Below the pieces are notes generated by a model. That model had not been told where the DNA came from, searched no databases, and saw only the letters and a program-made list of their open reading frames with translations. The position numbers and the translations under genes were made by a program. A stretch of 22,603 bases of DNA from positions 1-22,603 of the IMG/VR virus record IMGVR_UViG_3300042562_003143; one strand, written 5' to 3'. This document shows positions 3,690 through 10,430 of the stretch, piece by piece (the stretch's first letter is position 1; each line of letters starts with the position of its first letter). The DNA is from a virus.

Positions 3690-5696
3690 CTAGAACCGCT
3701 TTCCGCGCCTTGGGCCCATCCATCCGGACGGCTTCGGCGCCTGTTGCGTGCTGCGCGGCGGGGCCGCATTGGGCCGACCCGCCAATTCAATTTCTTCCAC
3801 CCCCGGCTTGGGCGTCGGATCAAGCTGCAATTCCATCTGTTCCCAGCGCGGCTCGTCCCAGCGGTCAAGACCCATCAGCCAGGCGGCCGCACGGGCATAG
3901 ACCCGGTTGTCGAGCGCCTCGTTCCGGTCCCTGATTTTCTGCCATTCCAGCTTTGGAAAGCCGTGCCGGGTCTTGATCGTTACCAACTGCTCGGCCGTCA
4001 GCTGGCGCACCCATTCCGAGGTAATCCCGCGCGGGATGTGGACGAAGCCGGACGGCCAGGCACCACCTGCCGCCACCTCTTCGTCCGTTGGCGGTGCCAG
4101 TCGCAGGTAGCGGTAGGTCTCAGATTTGAAGACCGAAACCGCCACTTTCCAAAGCTGGACGCCGCGGCGGATTTTATGGCCGCGCTCGGTGACCTCGACA
4201 AATGTCGGCCCATCGACCGGGCTGGACCGGTCAAACCCGCCTACGCCCTTGACCGCGATCACCTGACCTCTGCCTTGCGCCCGCACCCAGGAATAGACGG
4301 CGTCGGTCGTCACCCCGTCACCAGTGTCGATCGCCAGGCGCGCGAGGCCCATCCGTTGGCCGCCAGCATGTGGCCACGTCTGGCTCAGGATCGCCGTCAC
4401 CTGATCCCAGGTCGCGGGATTGGCGATTTCACCCTCGACGACGATATGATCGACGAGCCACGACCGCAGATTGCGGCCCCAGCCCCAGACATCGACCTCG
4501 ATCCGCCCCTCGCGCTGGACATCCGCCCCGGCGGTCAGAACCAGAACACCCTCCGGCACTTGTCCCAACTGCCATGGCTCGCGCCGCTCATAGACCCTCT
4601 GCCAATCCGGTGCCTCGCCGCGCTCCTGCCACGTCTCCCCCAGAACCGTGTTTTTCAGCGTCTTCAGGGCGGCATCATTGCCTTGGGCGGCCTCCCAACC
4701 CCGGGCAATTTCCTCCCAGGACAACCAGCCGAGCGGCGAATAGAGCCCGGAAATGTGGAAGCCCACGATCCCCGCCGCTTTCGCCGTCATCACTTGTTCG
4801 GGCGATGCCGTCGGCATCCAGTCGGCCCCGTTGGCCTCGGCCATCATCCACGGCTTGTGGCGTTCCTCGATTGGTTCGTCGCAAGCCTCGCAGACATAGT
4901 GGGTGCGGTCGGGAAGGCCTTTCGGCCAATGCAGCCTCTCAAATTTCAGCCATTGCAGGGTGCCGCAATGCGGGCAGGGGACGTGATAGCGCTGCTGATC
5001 GGACGCCTCATACTCCCTTTCGATGCGGCTCACTCCTTTGATGGTCGGCGTAGAGGCCAGAAATAGTTTTGAGCGGTGGCCGAAGCTGATGGTCCGTGCT
5101 TCGGCCAGGGCAATCGGATCACCCTCGCCGTCGACATCGCCCGGATAGGCGTCGACCTCGTCCAGAAACACCCAGCGCGCGGGCATCGACCGCAGGCCGA
5201 CGGCGGAATTGGCGCCGGTCAGGATCAACTGGCCGCCGGGAAAGCGCTTTCCCAAAACCGTGTTCCCAGCGTCTCGCGACCGCGACGGCAAGACCAGCGC
5301 GCGCAGATCCGGGCTTTCCTCAATCAGCGGGTCAATCCGCTGCTGCGACAGGCGTTTGGCCAGATCGACAGTCGGCTGCACCGCCAGAAACGGACCCGGC
5401 GCCCGGTGCATGCAGAACCCGATCCAGTTGTTTCCGGCCTCGGTGGCACCAACCTGCGCCGCCTTCATGAACACCACGCGCTGCGCCGGGTTGCGGGGCG
5501 ACAGGGCGTCCATCACGGCTTTCATGTAGGGCGTCCGCGCAGTGCGATAGGGCCCGGCCTCCGACGCCGCTCGCGACGACAAGACGCGATGCCGGTCGGC
5601 CCATTGCGAAACGGTCAGCGAAGGATCAGGGGCGAGCCCCGCCATCCAAGCGCGCCGGACCTCTTCGGCGCCATCGAAGGTTTCAACGGAGCTCAA
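3690..5696 (-). CDS. Phage terminase large subunit, GpA family
   Basis: 668-residue DNA-packaging motor and nuclease of the lambda gpA type. Visible parts in order: an N-terminal segment with YMKAVMDAL; a deviant Walker A region FMKAAQVGATEAG near residues 76-87; Walker B VFLDEVDAYPGD near 176-187; motif III LASTPT near 213-218; a four-Cys zinc ribbon (CPHC near 241-244, CEAC near 269-272); and a C-terminal nuclease domain with acidic residues in AGADVQ (near 392) and IDTGDG (near 457). The start is a TTG at 5696 overlapping the small-subunit stop by 14 bases; a later start would remove N-terminal sequence. No frameshift is seen, so packaging genes look intact although the capsid is not. Confidence 0.93.
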   Translation of the reverse strand: MSSVETFDGAEEVRRAWMAGLAPDPSLTVSQWADRHRVLSSRAASEAGPYRTARTPYMKAVMDALSPRNPAQRVVFMKAAQVGATEAGNNWIGFCMHRAPGPFLAVQPTVDLAKRLSQQRIDPLIEESPDLRALVLPSRSRDAGNTVLGKRFPGGQLILTGANSAVGLRSMPARWVFLDEVDAYPGDVDGEGDPIALAEARTISFGHRSKLFLASTPTIKGVSRIEREYEASDQQRYHVPCPHCGTLQWLKFERLHWPKGLPDRTHYVCEACDEPIEERHKPWMMAEANGADWMPTASPEQVMTAKAAGIVGFHISGLYSPLGWLSWEEIARGWEAAQGNDAALKTLKNTVLGETWQERGEAPDWQRVYERREPWQLGQVPEGVLVLTAGADVQREGRIEVDVWGWGRNLRSWLVDHIVVEGEIANPATWDQVTAILSQTWPHAGGQRMGLARLAIDTGDGVTTDAVYSWVRAQGRGQVIAVKGVGGFDRSSPVDGPTFVEVTERGHKIRRGVQLWKVAVSVFKSETYRYLRLAPPTDEEVAAGGAWPSGFVHIPRGITSEWVRQLTAEQLVTIKTRHGFPKLEWQKIRDRNEALDNRVYARAAAWLMGLDRWDEPRWEQMELQLDPTPKPGVEEIELAGRPNAAPPRSTQQAPKPSGWMGPRRGKRF

Positions 5697-6294
5697 TCTT
5701 GACCTCCGCCATATCCGTCAGATGCGCACGCAGATACATGTCCAAAACCTGCTCCATACGATGGGCATCGACGCCCAGTTCTGCTGCCATGTTGGCCGCC
5801 ACCCGAGGTGGCCAGTTCAGCCAGGCATCGCGCTCGCGCCGGGCCAGATCGAACACCATCGCCGTGGCCCGGGCCCGGTCGATCACCTCGGCCTTCATCT
5901 TTTCCAGCCGGACCTTGGCGGTCTGGGCTTTCAGAACTTCATTGGCCATCCGGGCGCGAAGGAATGACACTTCACCGCCGGTCGCTTCGCCCGGGCCGGG
6001 TTCGGTTCCGGCATCGCGCAAGGTGTCTGCCACGGCTTTCAGCGCCGCTTGGGGCACTGGCTTGGTGGCCGCCGCCGCCCTGGTCGTTCCTGCCGCCGTC
6101 TCAAGTGCCATCAGGCGGGCCTGTTGGCCGCGCTGTTTTGCCGGATCGGTCTGGGCACCCCATTCGGAATCCGCCGTTGCCGGATCAATCGTGCCGTCCG
6201 GCAGCGTGGTGATCCGCCCGGTTGCAATGGCTTTGCGCACCGCCGCCTCGGAGACGCCGCGCTGCGCGGCATAGCTTCGCCGGGACACTCCCAT
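5683..6294 (-). CDS. Phage terminase small subunit (Nu1-like)
   Basis: 203 aa. The N-terminus MGVSRRSYAAQRGVSEAAVRKAIATG is a helix-turn-helix that would read the packaging site. A long Ala-rich linker follows, then a helical C-terminal region (FLRARMANEVLKAQTAKVRLEK and RRERDAWLNWPPRVAANMAAELG) that is typical of small terminases in alphaproteobacterial prophages and would oligomerise and contact the large subunit. It is first in the minus-strand head operon and divergent from the small genes starting at 6389. The ATG at 6294 is preceded by GAGG about eleven bases away. Confidence 0.85.
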   Translation of the reverse strand: MGVSRRSYAAQRGVSEAAVRKAIATGRITTLPDGTIDPATADSEWGAQTDPAKQRGQQARLMALETAAGTTRAAAATKPVPQAALKAVADTLRDAGTEPGPGEATGGEVSFLRARMANEVLKAQTAKVRLEKMKAEVIDRARATAMVFDLARRERDAWLNWPPRVAANMAAELGVDAHRMEQVLDMYLRAHLTDMAEVKIELR

Positions 6295-6388
6295 TCTGAC
6301 CGAAACCTCATTTATTCAGTGACTTAGGAGTTGCTCTCTTTTGGTCTCGTGCGCTGTCTGCACCCATCGCAACGCAACGGAGGCCCCC

Positions 6389-6598
6389 ATGAAACCCCTG
6401 ACGACCCACGAAGAATTCTGCCTGAAGAACGCCGCCCACTTTGTCGCCGCCCGCGGCCGGACGCCCTCCACCCGCACCCGGCAGCAATTCGCTACCTTGC
6501 CCGAGGCGCAGGCCTTTGGGGCCAGCATCGGCGACGGCCGCACCATGATCTACGCGGTCACCTCCCTCGGCCATTCGGCCCACATCATCAACGCTTGA
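6389..6598 (+). CDS. Small conserved-type hypothetical protein
   Basis: 69 aa, starting MKPLTTHEEFCLKNAAHFVAA and ending in GHSAHIINA. ATG at 6389 is preceded by GGAGG. The central part (RQQFATLPEAQAFGASIGDGRTMIYAVTS) looks like a small alpha/beta fold. No transmembrane segment or signal peptide is visible. It is first of three closely spaced plus-strand genes (12-base gap to the next) diverging from the terminase operon. Function not recognised; the low-complexity-free sequence and good ribosome site support a real gene. Confidence 0.7.
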   Translation: MKPLTTHEEFCLKNAAHFVAARGRTPSTRTRQQFATLPEAQAFGASIGDGRTMIYAVTSLGHSAHIINA

Positions 6599-6610: not shown

Positions 6611-7159
6611 ATGAAAACCAAATCCCTCACCGCCGCGCAGATCGACACGCTCGCCCAGCACCTTTGCGAGGCGCCGATCGTGCCCAGCGCCAGCGCCAAG
6701 AAGGCGGGCGACAATCTGGCGCAACTCTTGGTCGCCGGGATCGGCGAAGAGCGCGCAGCCCTCACTTTCACCTCGATCATGACGGCCGACACCTTCGATC
6801 AGGCGGAGGCGCGGCTGATCTTGGTCCTGAAATACGGCAACACCGATGCGGCTATCGTCGCCACCCCGGCGGTTGCCGAAGAACCGAAGGCCGTAAATGC
6901 CCCGGTGATCGGCAAGCGCCAAGCCATCTTAGATCAGGCTCAGACCGGCGCCTTGCCAGAGCCGCCAGATTTCTCCAAGCCTACCCACGCCCGGTTCCGC
7001 ACCAAGCTGGCGCAGATCGTGGCTTTGGCCGAAGCGGGCGACATCGCCGGTTTGCAGGCTTTCGAGATCAACCCGGTCTCGTCCAGCCCGAAAGCCATGG
7101 CGCGCTACCGCGACCTTTGCGTTATCGCCATCACCGCCCGCGACCGGGTGGAGGCATGA
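6611..7159 (+). CDS. Hypothetical protein with conserved C-terminal helical region
   Basis: 182 aa. The N-terminal half (LTAAQIDTLAQHLCEAPIVP, then AKKAGDNLAQLLV) is helical. A variable Ala/Pro-rich linker follows at about 80-105, and then a second region, FRTKLAQIVALAEAGDIAGLQAFEI, ending with MARYRDLCVIAITARDR. The second region resembles C-terminal segments found in plasmid- and phage-borne hypothetical proteins of Rhizobiales and Rhodobacterales. AAGGA stands nine bases before the ATG. The stop overlaps the next ATG by four bases. Function not recognised. Confidence 0.7.
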   Translation: MKTKSLTAAQIDTLAQHLCEAPIVPSASAKKAGDNLAQLLVAGIGEERAALTFTSIMTADTFDQAEARLILVLKYGNTDAAIVATPAVAEEPKAVNAPVIGKRQAILDQAQTGALPEPPDFSKPTHARFRTKLAQIVALAEAGDIAGLQAFEINPVSSSPKAMARYRDLCVIAITARDRVEA

Positions 7160-7612: not shown

Positions 7613-7942
7613 ATGACCAGCAAGACCCAAGACGGCATAAGCGTCCGAGCAACGCAGCGAGTCAACACGGACGAAACGGTTACGAGCAAGGTAGTTGACA
7701 TTGGTCCTGGTACGTCCGGCCTTCGGATCGTCGTTGAAGTTGGTGGCGGCAAAGGGTTCAACGTCACCATCACTGTGACCCCAGAGGAAATCACGGCTTG
7801 GTTGCCGGAAATCATCGACCAAAGGGTCAGGCAGCGCGTTGCGGACAGTGAAAAGGCAATGCGTGCTTTAGCAGCGCAAGAAGCGCGCACGTTGGGCTTT
7901 ACGCTACCTTACCTTCCGGGCCTCTTGGAAAAAGGGCGATAA
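7613..7942 (+). CDS. Hypothetical protein
   Basis: 109 aa. The N-terminal half is predicted beta-rich (VTSKVVDIGPGTSGLRIVVEV, FNVTITVTPEEI) and the C-terminal half is helical and charged (IIDQRVRQRVADSEKAMRALAAQEARTLG). Codon use is less GC-biased than the flanking phage genes, suggesting a later arrival. A 121-base spacer containing an imperfect hairpin (stem 7508-7515/7534-7541) separates it from the upstream trio, so it may have its own promoter. It is convergent with the PLP-enzyme-like gene. Function not recognised. Confidence 0.6.
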   Translation: MTSKTQDGISVRATQRVNTDETVTSKVVDIGPGTSGLRIVVEVGGGKGFNVTITVTPEEITAWLPEIIDQRVRQRVADSEKAMRALAAQEARTLGFTLPYLPGLLEKGR

Positions 7943-7991: not shown

Positions 7992-8696
7992 CTAGGGCCG
8001 CGGCAAGGGCGCAACATTCCAGAACAACACCTGCCCAGAGCCCCGCATCGCAACGCACAACTCCCACGCCTTCGCGTCGTAATGCGGGTCTGCCGGGAAG
8101 GGCGCTCCCATGATCGCCGCTTGCCCAAACGCCCGCGGATAAACGTGGATGTGGGCTCCGGTGACATCCTTCGGCACCAGTTCCCGCCCGATTTGCACGA
8201 CGTGCCGCCGGGCTTTCGGCCAAGCCAGCGCTAAACCGCGCGCCAGCACGCCAGAACCTGCGGCGCACCAAACCTCGTCCGGCTCAAGACCGGTCAACCG
8301 AGCCGCCGCAGCGATTGCATCGATGCCACCAGGGATGTCTGCTCCAAAAGGGATCAGCGATGCTCCGGTGTCGCGGCAGTATTGCTTCGCTCGGCTTTGC
8401 ACGACGGTGAGATAGCCGGGCGACACCGGCACGACCTTGGCGCCGAGGCGCGCGGCTTCTAGAGTTCGGGCATGTGGTTTGGTGCGTTGAGCCACGAAGA
8501 TCGTCGCCTTCTTGCCCAGTGCCCGGGCGACATGGGCCAAGGCGGTCTGGGCGCCACCCTCAGGCGGGCTGGCGTAGACGGCTTCCTGCACACCATCGAA
8601 CACCTTGCCGATGAACCGGGCTTTGGTGCCGCCGGGGTGCAGGTCATCGCGGACCACCCAGATCCCGGAATAGGTTTGAACAATGGGCGCGGTCAT
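7992..8696 (-). CDS. PLP-dependent enzyme-like protein (fold-type II, ACC-deaminase/threonine-synthase-like), short phage version
   Basis: 234 aa. The segment RDDLHPGGTKARFI near residues 16-29 corresponds to the GG(N/T)K-x-R site of fold-type II PLP enzymes, with Lys25 the likely cofactor lysine. SPPEGGAQTALAHVARALGK replaces the usual substrate loop, IPFGADIPGGIDAI matches the iP-G-s segment, and WCAAGSGVLARGLALAWP matches the phosphate-cup region. Known members are usually about 320-340 aa, so this is a reduced form. Its ATG overlaps the methyltransferase stop by four bases, making it the third gene of a ParB-methyltransferase-PLP unit. Substrate unknown; a role in modifying DNA or a metabolite during phage growth is inference. 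It could also be a degenerate non-catalytic relative. Confidence 0.65.
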   Translation of the reverse strand: MTAPIVQTYSGIWVVRDDLHPGGTKARFIGKVFDGVQEAVYASPPEGGAQTALAHVARALGKKATIFVAQRTKPHARTLEAARLGAKVVPVSPGYLTVVQSRAKQYCRDTGASLIPFGADIPGGIDAIAAAARLTGLEPDEVWCAAGSGVLARGLALAWPKARRHVVQIGRELVPKDVTGAHIHVYPRAFGQAAIMGAPFPADPHYDAKAWELCVAMRGSGQVLFWNVAPLPRP

Positions 8697-9646
8697 TCTT
8701 GCGGTGCCTCGTCGGTGGTGCCGTCGGTCTCGTCAATCTCACCGAATTCCACCTGCCCGATCGCCTCGGTGGCCCGCTTTGGGTCGCCCTTGCAGAAGAC
8801 AAGCACATTCTGATGGGTGCGGCCCAGTTTCCGCGAGGCTTCGAATTGTCGCCCGGCGCGGATTGGAAGCGACCCGACGGCTGTGACGAGGATCGCATCG
8901 TTGTAGAACCGGGCACCTGCGGCCTCGAAGGCCTCCACCGTTTTGCCGGGTAAGTTCACGAGGAAACCGCCCGCGTCCCGCACATCGCCTATCACCCAGA
9001 CGGCGAAGCGATCGTTGCGCAGACGGGATACCGCCCCGGCGATGATCTGGGTGTAGGCGTCGAAGAAGGCGTCCTTGCCCAGAGTGGAAAGGTCGGCCGG
9101 GTCGTCGGAATAGACCTCAAGATTCCAGTAAGGCGGGCAACTGAAGATCAGGTCGGCATCCACAGACTTCGCCAGCGTGGCGATGTCGCGACTGTCGCCG
9201 GTGATCCATTGCGGGGCGGGGCCCGAGCCCAGCGCGGCCTGGGCCCGATTGGCGGCGACCTGTTCGGCGCGGAGTTCGATGCCGACGTAGTCACGGCCCA
9301 GTTGGGACGCGACAATACCGCGCACGGAACCGCCCGCGAAGGGATCGAGGACCGTGCCGCCTTGGGGGCAGAACCACCGATAGGCGATTTCGCAAAGGAC
9401 CGGATCGAAGATCGATGTGCCGGAGGCCGTGGCTGCGTCAGAGGCTTGGTAATGATCGGCAAGGAAAGTTTCGGTGGTCAATTCGTGACCCAGTTCGGCC
9501 TCTTTGGCGCGCTTTTTGGCGTAGAAGCTCGGATCGCCCGACGAATGCGATGGCATCAAGACGCCGCCATTGGTCTTTTCGCCGCCGACCACATGCTCGC
9601 CGCGCATCAGGTCCTGGCCGAAAGTGCGGGCGGGAGACTTAACCAT
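8693..9646 (-). CDS. DNA methyltransferase, N6-adenine/N4-cytosine class (phage orphan)
   Basis: 317 aa. S-adenosylmethionine-binding motif I is DPFAGGSVRG near residues 111-120, with the acidic motif II in VGIEL near 131-135. The catalytic motif IV is SCPPYW near 179-184, where classical enzymes have (D/N/S)PPY. Motif I precedes motif IV directly. The C-terminus ends QNVLVFCKGDP. It starts at the ATG at 9646, preceded by AAAAGGAGG, and overlaps the ParB-like gene by eight bases. In many alphaproteobacterial prophages the ParB-like and methylase parts are one polypeptide; here they are separate but coupled. No restriction endonuclease is nearby, so it probably protects phage DNA or acts in regulation. 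Confidence 0.88.
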   Translation of the reverse strand: MVKSPARTFGQDLMRGEHVVGGEKTNGGVLMPSHSSGDPSFYAKKRAKEAELGHELTTETFLADHYQASDAATASGTSIFDPVLCEIAYRWFCPQGGTVLDPFAGGSVRGIVASQLGRDYVGIELRAEQVAANRAQAALGSGPAPQWITGDSRDIATLAKSVDADLIFSCPPYWNLEVYSDDPADLSTLGKDAFFDAYTQIIAGAVSRLRNDRFAVWVIGDVRDAGGFLVNLPGKTVEAFEAAGARFYNDAILVTAVGSLPIRAGRQFEASRKLGRTHQNVLVFCKGDPKRATEAIGQVEFGEIDETDGTTDEAPQE

Positions 9647-10430
9647 GAGCGGCCTCCTTTTTTTGGCGGCGGGCGGTTGCGGCTTTGGCGACCTGATCGG
9701 CCAGACCGCCACCGCCGAGGACCGCGCCGTCGTTGAAAGCCTTTGCCGCGCCGGGCTTGTAACCCTTGCGCGAGCCATTGCCGGGCATAGGGCTGCCGCC
9801 TGGGCAGGCGCGATCACCCTCGCCACGGCCAAGTTCGGAACGGATGCCGATGTCCAGCCAGGCGCGCTTGCGATCCTGCCACCAGCCTTTGCGGGCATCG
9901 AGGATTGAGAAGGGCGGGATGCCAAAGCGGGCGGCCAGACTGCCGGACGACGAAGCGCTTGGTGGGGCGTCACCTTCGCCAGCCCCACCGCCCTGACCGT
10001 CGCCGCCCAGCGCACCCGCATCGCCAAATTCAAACCCCGCCAGCAATTCCTCCAGTTCAGCTTCGTCAAAGCCGATCATGTCCAGATCGAAGTTTTCGTC
10101 GCGCAGCGCCGCCAGTTCCGAGGCCAGCAACGCGTTGTCCCATCCGGCGTTCTCGGCAATTCGGTTGTCGGCCAAGATCAGGGCCCGGCGCTGGGCCTCG
10201 GACAAATGGTCCAGGATGATCACCGGCACTTCGGTCAGGCCGAGGCTCTGCGCCGCCAGAAGCCGCCCGTGCCCGGCGATGATAACGTCGTCCTCGCCGA
10301 TCAGGATCGGATTGGTGAAACCAAACTCCGCCATCGAGGCCGCAATCTGCGCCACTTGATCTGCGGAATGGGTGCGGGCATTGCGGATGTAGGGCACCAG
10401 CCGGACGGTTTGCATCATGTCGATCTGCAA
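9639..10430 (-). CDS. ParB/Sulfiredoxin-like N-terminal domain protein
   Basis: 263 aa from a TTG at 10430 that has AGGAG eight bases upstream; ATGs at 10418 and 10415 are alternatives. The ParB-like domain spans roughly 1-95: LVPYIRNARTHSADQVAQIAA, then NPILIGEDDVIIAGHGRLLAAQ with the GHGR motif, then LSEAQRRALILADNRIAENAGWD. A C-terminal part (RFGIPPFSILDARKGWWQDRKRAW, then Gly-rich) is the linker that in other phages leads directly into the methylase domain. This suggests the pair derives from a single ParB-methylase fusion. Such proteins in prophages accompany orphan methylases; exact role is unclear and chromosome partition is unlikely. Confidence 0.85.
   Translation of the reverse strand: MQIDMMQTVRLVPYIRNARTHSADQVAQIAASMAEFGFTNPILIGEDDVIIAGHGRLLAAQSLGLTEVPVIILDHLSEAQRRALILADNRIAENAGWDNALLASELAALRDENFDLDMIGFDEAELEELLAGFEFGDAGALGGDGQGGGAGEGDAPPSASSSGSLAARFGIPPFSILDARKGWWQDRKRAWLDIGIRSELGRGEGDRACPGGSPMPGNGSRKGYKPGAAKAFNDGAVLGGGGLADQVAKAATARRQKKEAAHG

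Follow-up and report, generated by a model that had tools for sequence, protein, structure and literature searches.

Organization of the three-gene unit

The window, a 22.6 kb IMG/VR fragment, carries on its minus strand three overlapping genes for a ParB-like protein, a protein with a methyltransferase (MTase) fold and a PLP protein. The genes and their main features are as follows:

9639..10430 (-), ParB-like gene; TTG start at 10430 with AGGAG upstream, ATG at 10419 or 10416 also possible; TAA stop at 9639
9825..9929 (-), RFGIPPFSILDARKGWWQDRKRAWLDIGIRSELGR, the conserved segment linking ParB and MTase parts (PPFSILD...ELGR), encoded here in the ParB-like gene and present in single-chain relatives
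8693..9646 (-), MTase gene, 317 aa, class I Rossmann fold; ATG start at 9646 with AAAGGAGG upstream; TGA stop at 8693
9317..9346 (-), motif I DPFAGGSVRG (residues 101-110), the cofactor loop; D.FAGD[ST]VFG in the SpeD-linked clade
9128..9142 (-), motif IV SCPPY (residues 169-173)
7992..8696 (-), PLP gene, 234 aa, compact fold-type II; ATG start at 8696, in the MTase stop codon
8622..8624 (-), Lys25 in GGTK, the predicted Schiff-base lysine
8250..8258 (-), GSG (residues 147-149), the predicted PLP phosphate loop
8079..8081 (-), Tyr206 in DPHYDAK, the counterpart of DPVYTGK in D-cysteine desulfhydrase

The MTase start overlaps the stop of the ParB-like gene by 8 nt (ATGGTTAA) and the PLP start overlaps the MTase stop by 4 nt (ATGA), just as the original prediction had described, and its observation of a three-gene unit is confirmed. 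The ParB-like and MTase genes, which it had treated as coupled genes, are in relatives two parts of one protein. The unit is followed by a lambda-like packaging module with terminase, portal and capsid genes, and small plus-strand ORFs (6341-6598, 6611-7159 and 7613-7942) separate the PLP gene from the terminase genes. A terminator-like hairpin of 9 pairs with a T-rich tail is located at 10476-10454 (-), directly upstream of the ParB-like start, so that the unit may need its own promoter; hairpin patterns of the terminator type are not enriched in the window relative to shuffles.

The product of the ParB-like gene, presumed to be DNA-binding, matched PHROG 15396 (E 2e-91) and PHROG 498 (E 4e-56), while its match to the ParB N-terminal domain PF02195 scored 25.1 bits against a cut-off of 26.3. 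It consists of a ParB-like N-terminal domain and the segment that starts the MTase part in relatives, and it aligns with a single-chain protein of phage ZS04 (812 aa). ParB and MTase form a single chain in relatives without the PLP gene; together with the linking segment found in the ParB-like gene, this suggests that the window encodes one enzyme split over three genes.

The MTase-fold protein and its CPPY motif

The MTase scored 40.7 bits against PF01555 (DNA N6/N4 amino methyltransferases), above the cut-off of 26.7, and matched PHROG 12517 with an E value of 6e-129. Its AlphaFold2 (AF2) model has a pLDDT of 82 with a disordered N-terminus and resembles the tRNA MTase TrmN (Z 18.6); the best structural matches of the model are methylating enzymes rather than acp transferases. 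The motif IV residue that is replaced by Cys in CPPY usually contacts the target amine. The original prediction had called SCPPY non-standard: the MTase family does depart from the standard D/N/S-P-P-Y/F/W, but C-P-P-Y was kept in 358 of 359 evaluable relatives and is thus a hallmark across the family rather than a peculiarity of the window. The motif hints at an unusual target or an unusual chemistry, though it is not decisive.

The PLP protein is a compact fold-type II enzyme

The PLP protein matched PF00291 (E 2e-11; 44 bits, cut-off 35) and PHROG 7093, labelled 'threonine dehydratase' (E 1e-67). Its AF2 model (pLDDT 96.8) was compared with solved structures using Foldseek and VIA-align; the nearest were D-cysteine desulfhydrase (Z 23.4) and ACC deaminase (Z 23.1), and the alignments cover 232-234 residues, which indicates a compact but complete fold-type II enzyme. 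The predicted shortening by about 100 residues was correct, as the solved relatives have 325-341 aa compared with 234 aa here. Lys25, whose conservation had been proposed as a check, is retained by 163 of 165 evaluable homologues; only L016 and L017, two GGTR sequences nearly identical to each other, carry Arg in its place. At the phosphate loop, 166 of 169 homologues (long hits) have GSG and the other 3 have GGG, and a 67-row alignment shows no variation at Tyr206.

A longer PLP subfamily also carries a Tyr that aligns to the active-site Tyr of D-cysteine desulfhydrase (DPxYxxK). The window protein has Gly-Gly in place of the Ser-Asn of the SN-loop: the counterpart of QSNHVR in D-cysteine desulfhydrase is ASPQV in the long subfamily, and comparison by eye gives EGGAQ for the window protein. 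Therefore, the reactions of the D-cysteine desulfhydrase group should not be assumed for this protein. None of the NCBIfam models for ACC deaminase and D-cysteine desulfhydrase matched it at E <= 1, and its closest phage relatives reached 18-44 bits against cut-offs of 289-610. Identification as a plain threonine dehydratase or ACC deaminase, as the PHROG and Vincenzo record names would have it, was rejected since the NCBIfam cut-offs were missed.

Public labels of these genes vary. Gp2 of mycobacteriophage Vincenzo (L128:1406-2275), annotated 'carboxylate deaminase', belongs to the longer subfamily and overlaps its own ParB-MTase gene, and the PLP gene or fusion is labelled 'DNA modification methylase' in Microcystis phage Mae-JY30 (PP438422.1 26902-27612) and Erythrobacter phage R6L (KY006853.1). 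Three Rhodobacter MAGs (L106, L107 and L108) contain PLP-gene remnants that lack the Lys-bearing N-terminal part and have no MTase nearby.

Linkage and fusion of the PLP and MTase genes

Viral scans with the Vincenzo or Pam4 PLP protein as a single query gave almost no matches and profile queries were required. In the first scan, an MTase sequence lay beside the PLP gene in all 80 viral loci, mostly with ParB as well where the contig reached; in one locus (L075) PLP and MTase are convergent. Across viral and GTDB genomes, an MTase was found within 700 nt of the PLP gene in 104 of the 110 loci with enough flank, and the remaining six are partial hits; the survey of neighbourhoods proposed earlier thus speaks against a chance arrangement. 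The median PLP-MTase gap is 36 nt. The hosts of PLP loci include Rhodobacterales and Hyphomicrobiales; one assembly labelled Bacteroidota and one labelled Cyanobacteriota contain a locus each, and a mycobacteriophage also carries one. Downstream of PLP, 27 of the 72 nonredundant PLP loci have a gene on the opposite strand, all from one cluster.

The PLP domain is also fused to the MTase. Five records, namely Erythrobacter phages R6L and ZS04, Pseudanabaena phage Pam4, L220 and L302, have it within the ParB-MTase, with motif I in the half before it and CPPY in the half after it, and two (L219 and L291) have it at the MTase C-terminus; a separate downstream PLP gene is commoner than fusion. It is very likely that the PLP enzyme and the ParB-MTase are coupled.

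A sister clade linked to SAM decarboxylase

A search with the MTase revealed Croceibacter phage P2559S and Pseudomonas phage ZRG1; in both, the ParB-MTase gene overlaps a SAM decarboxylase (SpeD) gene. A scan with ZRG1 and further scans yielded 363 ParB-MTase loci, of which 168 have PLP and 69 have SpeD, the initial partner threshold of 600 nt having been relaxed because it undercounted PLP; none of these 237 loci has both. The catalytic Ser/His/Cys of SpeD are kept in 68 of the 69 sequences, with a gap in one. In P2559S, one AdoMet_dc gene is annotated and one was detected, SpeD being the sole AdoMet_dc seen in this genome. A search of eight records, P2559S among them, gave no spermidine synthase match. 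The P2559s enzyme complements an E. coli speD mutant for spermidine and is a true SAM decarboxylase; the paper describing it mentions neither a methyltransferase nor ParB (PMC9992855).

The two partners are associated with different cofactor loops. Among nonredundant MTases, motif I of the G/R type (DPFAGGSVRG) was found with PLP in 72 and with no partner in 85, never with SpeD, whereas the D/F type (D.FAGD[ST]VFG) was found with SpeD in 43 and with no partner in two, never with PLP; ten MTases with other residues (G/F or D/K) are all partnerless. Thus all 72 PLP-linked MTases are G/R and all 43 SpeD-linked MTases are D/F, although the SpeD members all fall in one clade and the main contrast is essentially one event. 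Inside the SpeD clade, absence of SpeD tracks the loss of D/F (Fisher p 2e-9, with kinship ignored). When independent pairs were taken from a tree built without the motif columns, SpeD loss accompanied D/F loss in 4-5 of 6 pairs and the opposite in none, with a median sign-test p of 0.0625, the limit for so few pairs, for which 0.05 is unreachable. Judged from the sequences, loss of the SAM-loop Arg and gain of Asp would fit a cofactor free of the carboxylate. Seven members of the clade without SpeD (L132, L164, L180, L192, L197, L206 and L209) show a one-residue deletion in motif I, e.g., GG-VFGY.

PLP presence has a different distribution. About half of the nonredundant G/R-type ParB-MTases (85 of 157) have no nearby PLP gene, and hence PLP is optional; its presence is scattered on the tree (20 changes under stricter calling), and none of the MTase residues was seen to follow it clearly. 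From the scatter and the lack of a tracking residue, PLP looks like an add-on that acts after, or apart from, the transfer. Terminase genes often come next after partnerless, PLP or SpeD loci, and no recurring fourth enzyme was found in any of the three. PP-loop/PAPS-reductase-like genes occur near the ParB-MTase in L205 (downstream ORF 5324-6475; its MTase is of DTYKG type) and in L083, Erythrobacter phage R6L (2374-3417).

Proposed chemistry and alternative explanations

The original prediction had suggested a role in an unusual DNA modification, and this is partly supported by the retention of the lysine, the conserved neighbourhoods and the PLP-MTase fusions. The loci are conserved, PLP and MTase are fused in several of them, the PLP active site is intact and a SpeD sister clade has a changed cofactor loop. 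The sister clade, which was absent from that prediction, points to the type of chemistry: a family that transfers the three-carbon side of SAM would give the simplest common account of the PLP and SpeD partnerships. The ParB-like domain, the Rossmann MTase-fold transferase and the fold-type II PLP enzyme would belong to the same complex, in which the MTase-fold enzyme may donate the three-carbon side of SAM and not the methyl group. In the window's branch, 3-amino-3-carboxypropyl (acp) would be moved from SAM onto a DNA base, and the PLP enzyme could then remodel this DNA-borne α-amino acid by decarboxylation, deamination or substitution. In the sister branch, SpeD would make decarboxylated SAM and the aminopropyl group would be transferred directly. 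The biological role would probably be restriction evasion.

We consider DNA modification beyond methylation likely. That its chemistry is of the acp or aminopropyl kind has about an even chance or a little less, the SpeD link being the one pointer to it, and from linkage with enzymes of the SAM side chain we infer acp on DNA. For the three genes as one phage DNA-modification enzyme, with the MTase giving the three-carbon side of SAM, PLP remodelling acp and the sister branch adding aminopropyl, we put the chance just short of even. The broader proposal, that phages naturally carry aminopropyl- or aminocarboxypropyl-DNA made by CPPY ParB-MTases with mutually exclusive partners, SpeD acting before and compact PLP after the transfer, is more tentative still. 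Several points count against the acp model: the partnerless G/R MTases, the lack of an MTase residue that clearly follows PLP, the sign test that cannot reach 0.05, the rarity of decarboxylation among fold-type II enzymes, the Arg in place of Lys25 in two homologues and the likeness of the MTase to methylating enzymes.

This likeness, together with the PF01555 score above the cut-off, would suit an ordinary methylase beside a PLP enzyme that attaches a different group to DNA or produces a free amino acid used subsequently, e.g., by β-replacement of a serine derivative, and the D-cysteine desulfhydrase relatives do perform β-elimination chemistry; the explanation is rather unlikely, since it leaves the SAM decarboxylase pairing and the altered cofactor loop of the sister clade unaccounted for. 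The PLP-fold domain might instead be non-catalytic, a DNA-recognition or structural element replacing a target-recognition domain, which α-class MTases carry between motifs I and IV. Its insertion at that position, its optional presence and the two near-identical Arg homologues are compatible with this, which we nevertheless find improbable given the near-universal Lys, GSG or GGG in all 169 homologues, the invariant Tyr206 and the usual occurrence as a separate downstream gene.

It is unlikely, too, that the PLP enzyme itself moves the SAM side chain, through a SAM aldimine, elimination of methylthioadenosine and attack of the DNA base on vinylglycine-PLP, with the ParB-MTase flipping and presenting the base. 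A PLP domain between motifs I and IV could sit near the bound base, and Mur24 offers a precedent for PLP-dependent acp transfer with a proposed vinylglycine-PLP route, but the review that describes it groups Mur24 with ACC synthase-like enzymes and not with the D-cysteine desulfhydrase group (PMC10491745); moreover, G/R MTases without PLP retain motif I and CPPY, so the MTase seems active alone. Phage SpeD is usually read as a polyamine gene (PMC9992855), and PLP and SpeD could be auxiliary metabolic genes, serving polyamine or amino-acid supply or SAM depletion, whose place beside a methylase is an accident of phage gene order. We regard this as very improbable, given that PLP and MTase are fused in some phages, that reading frames overlap, that the two partners exclude each other, that motif I is coupled to the partner and that the eight records searched gave no spermidine synthase match. 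The least credible alternative makes the ParB-like domain a serine kinase (SbnI/SerK-like) that supplies O-phosphoserine to the PLP enzyme, as SbnI does for SbnA; it draws on a weak match to the NCBIfam model SerK (E 0.009) and the fold type of the PLP enzyme, and it was rejected because ParB also occurs in SpeD-linked and partnerless relatives and because SerK scored 15 bits, far below its cut-off of 380.

Comparison with known systems

Thymidine hypermodification, found in Pseudomonas M6 and other phages, hypermodifies phage DNA and involves a PLP enzyme, but it starts from 5-hydroxymethyluracil with kinase steps and its PLP enzymes are of other families than the window's. The window PLP protein shares with D-cysteine desulfhydrase and ACC deaminase the fold, the lysine, the phosphate loop and the DPxYxxK Tyr; it differs from them in its length, in Gly-Gly for the SN-loop Ser-Asn and in its link to a DNA MTase. 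The partnerless ParB-MTase fusions of PHROG 498, such as those of Listeria B054 and Enterococcus phiFL3A, have the same ParB-MTase with the SVRG motif I and CPPY, although no adjoining PLP or SpeD gene was found in these two.

The phage DNA transferase CmoX uses carboxy-SAM to form 5-carboxymethylcytosine and its genes are often near ParBc (PMC12783734). The CmoA/CmoX/CmoY system resembles the window in combining an MTase-fold phage DNA transferase, a modified SAM from a partner, a nearby ParBc and an additional enzyme that builds on the group once it is attached to DNA. However, CmoX is a C5-MTase with carboxy-SAM, Arg350 and an SPPC motif that is absent from the window MTase, which has SCPPY and an N6_N4-type Pfam match in a family partnered by SpeD or PLP. 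In microcin C, the acp-transferring MTase MccD acts with the PLP decarboxylase domain of MccE, and an order with decarboxylated SAM is also allowed (PMC10491745). By analogy, MccD and MccE, an MTase-fold acp transferase with a PLP enzyme, may parallel the window, and the decarboxylated-SAM route the SpeD clade; unlike the window, they act on a small-molecule substrate and MccE is described as a decarboxylase, the likeness drawn here being one of function.

Implications

Our literature search, which covered sources other than subscription journals and bioRxiv, found no paper that connects a phage ParB-MTase with either SpeD or a PLP enzyme of fold type II. If the proposed chemistry is true, it would represent a new chemical class among natural DNA modifications, and the primary amines on DNA would be useful handles. 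It would also provide the acceptor enzyme for the orphan SAM decarboxylases of such phages, and the unexplained ParB-MTase proteins of many phages would become testable.
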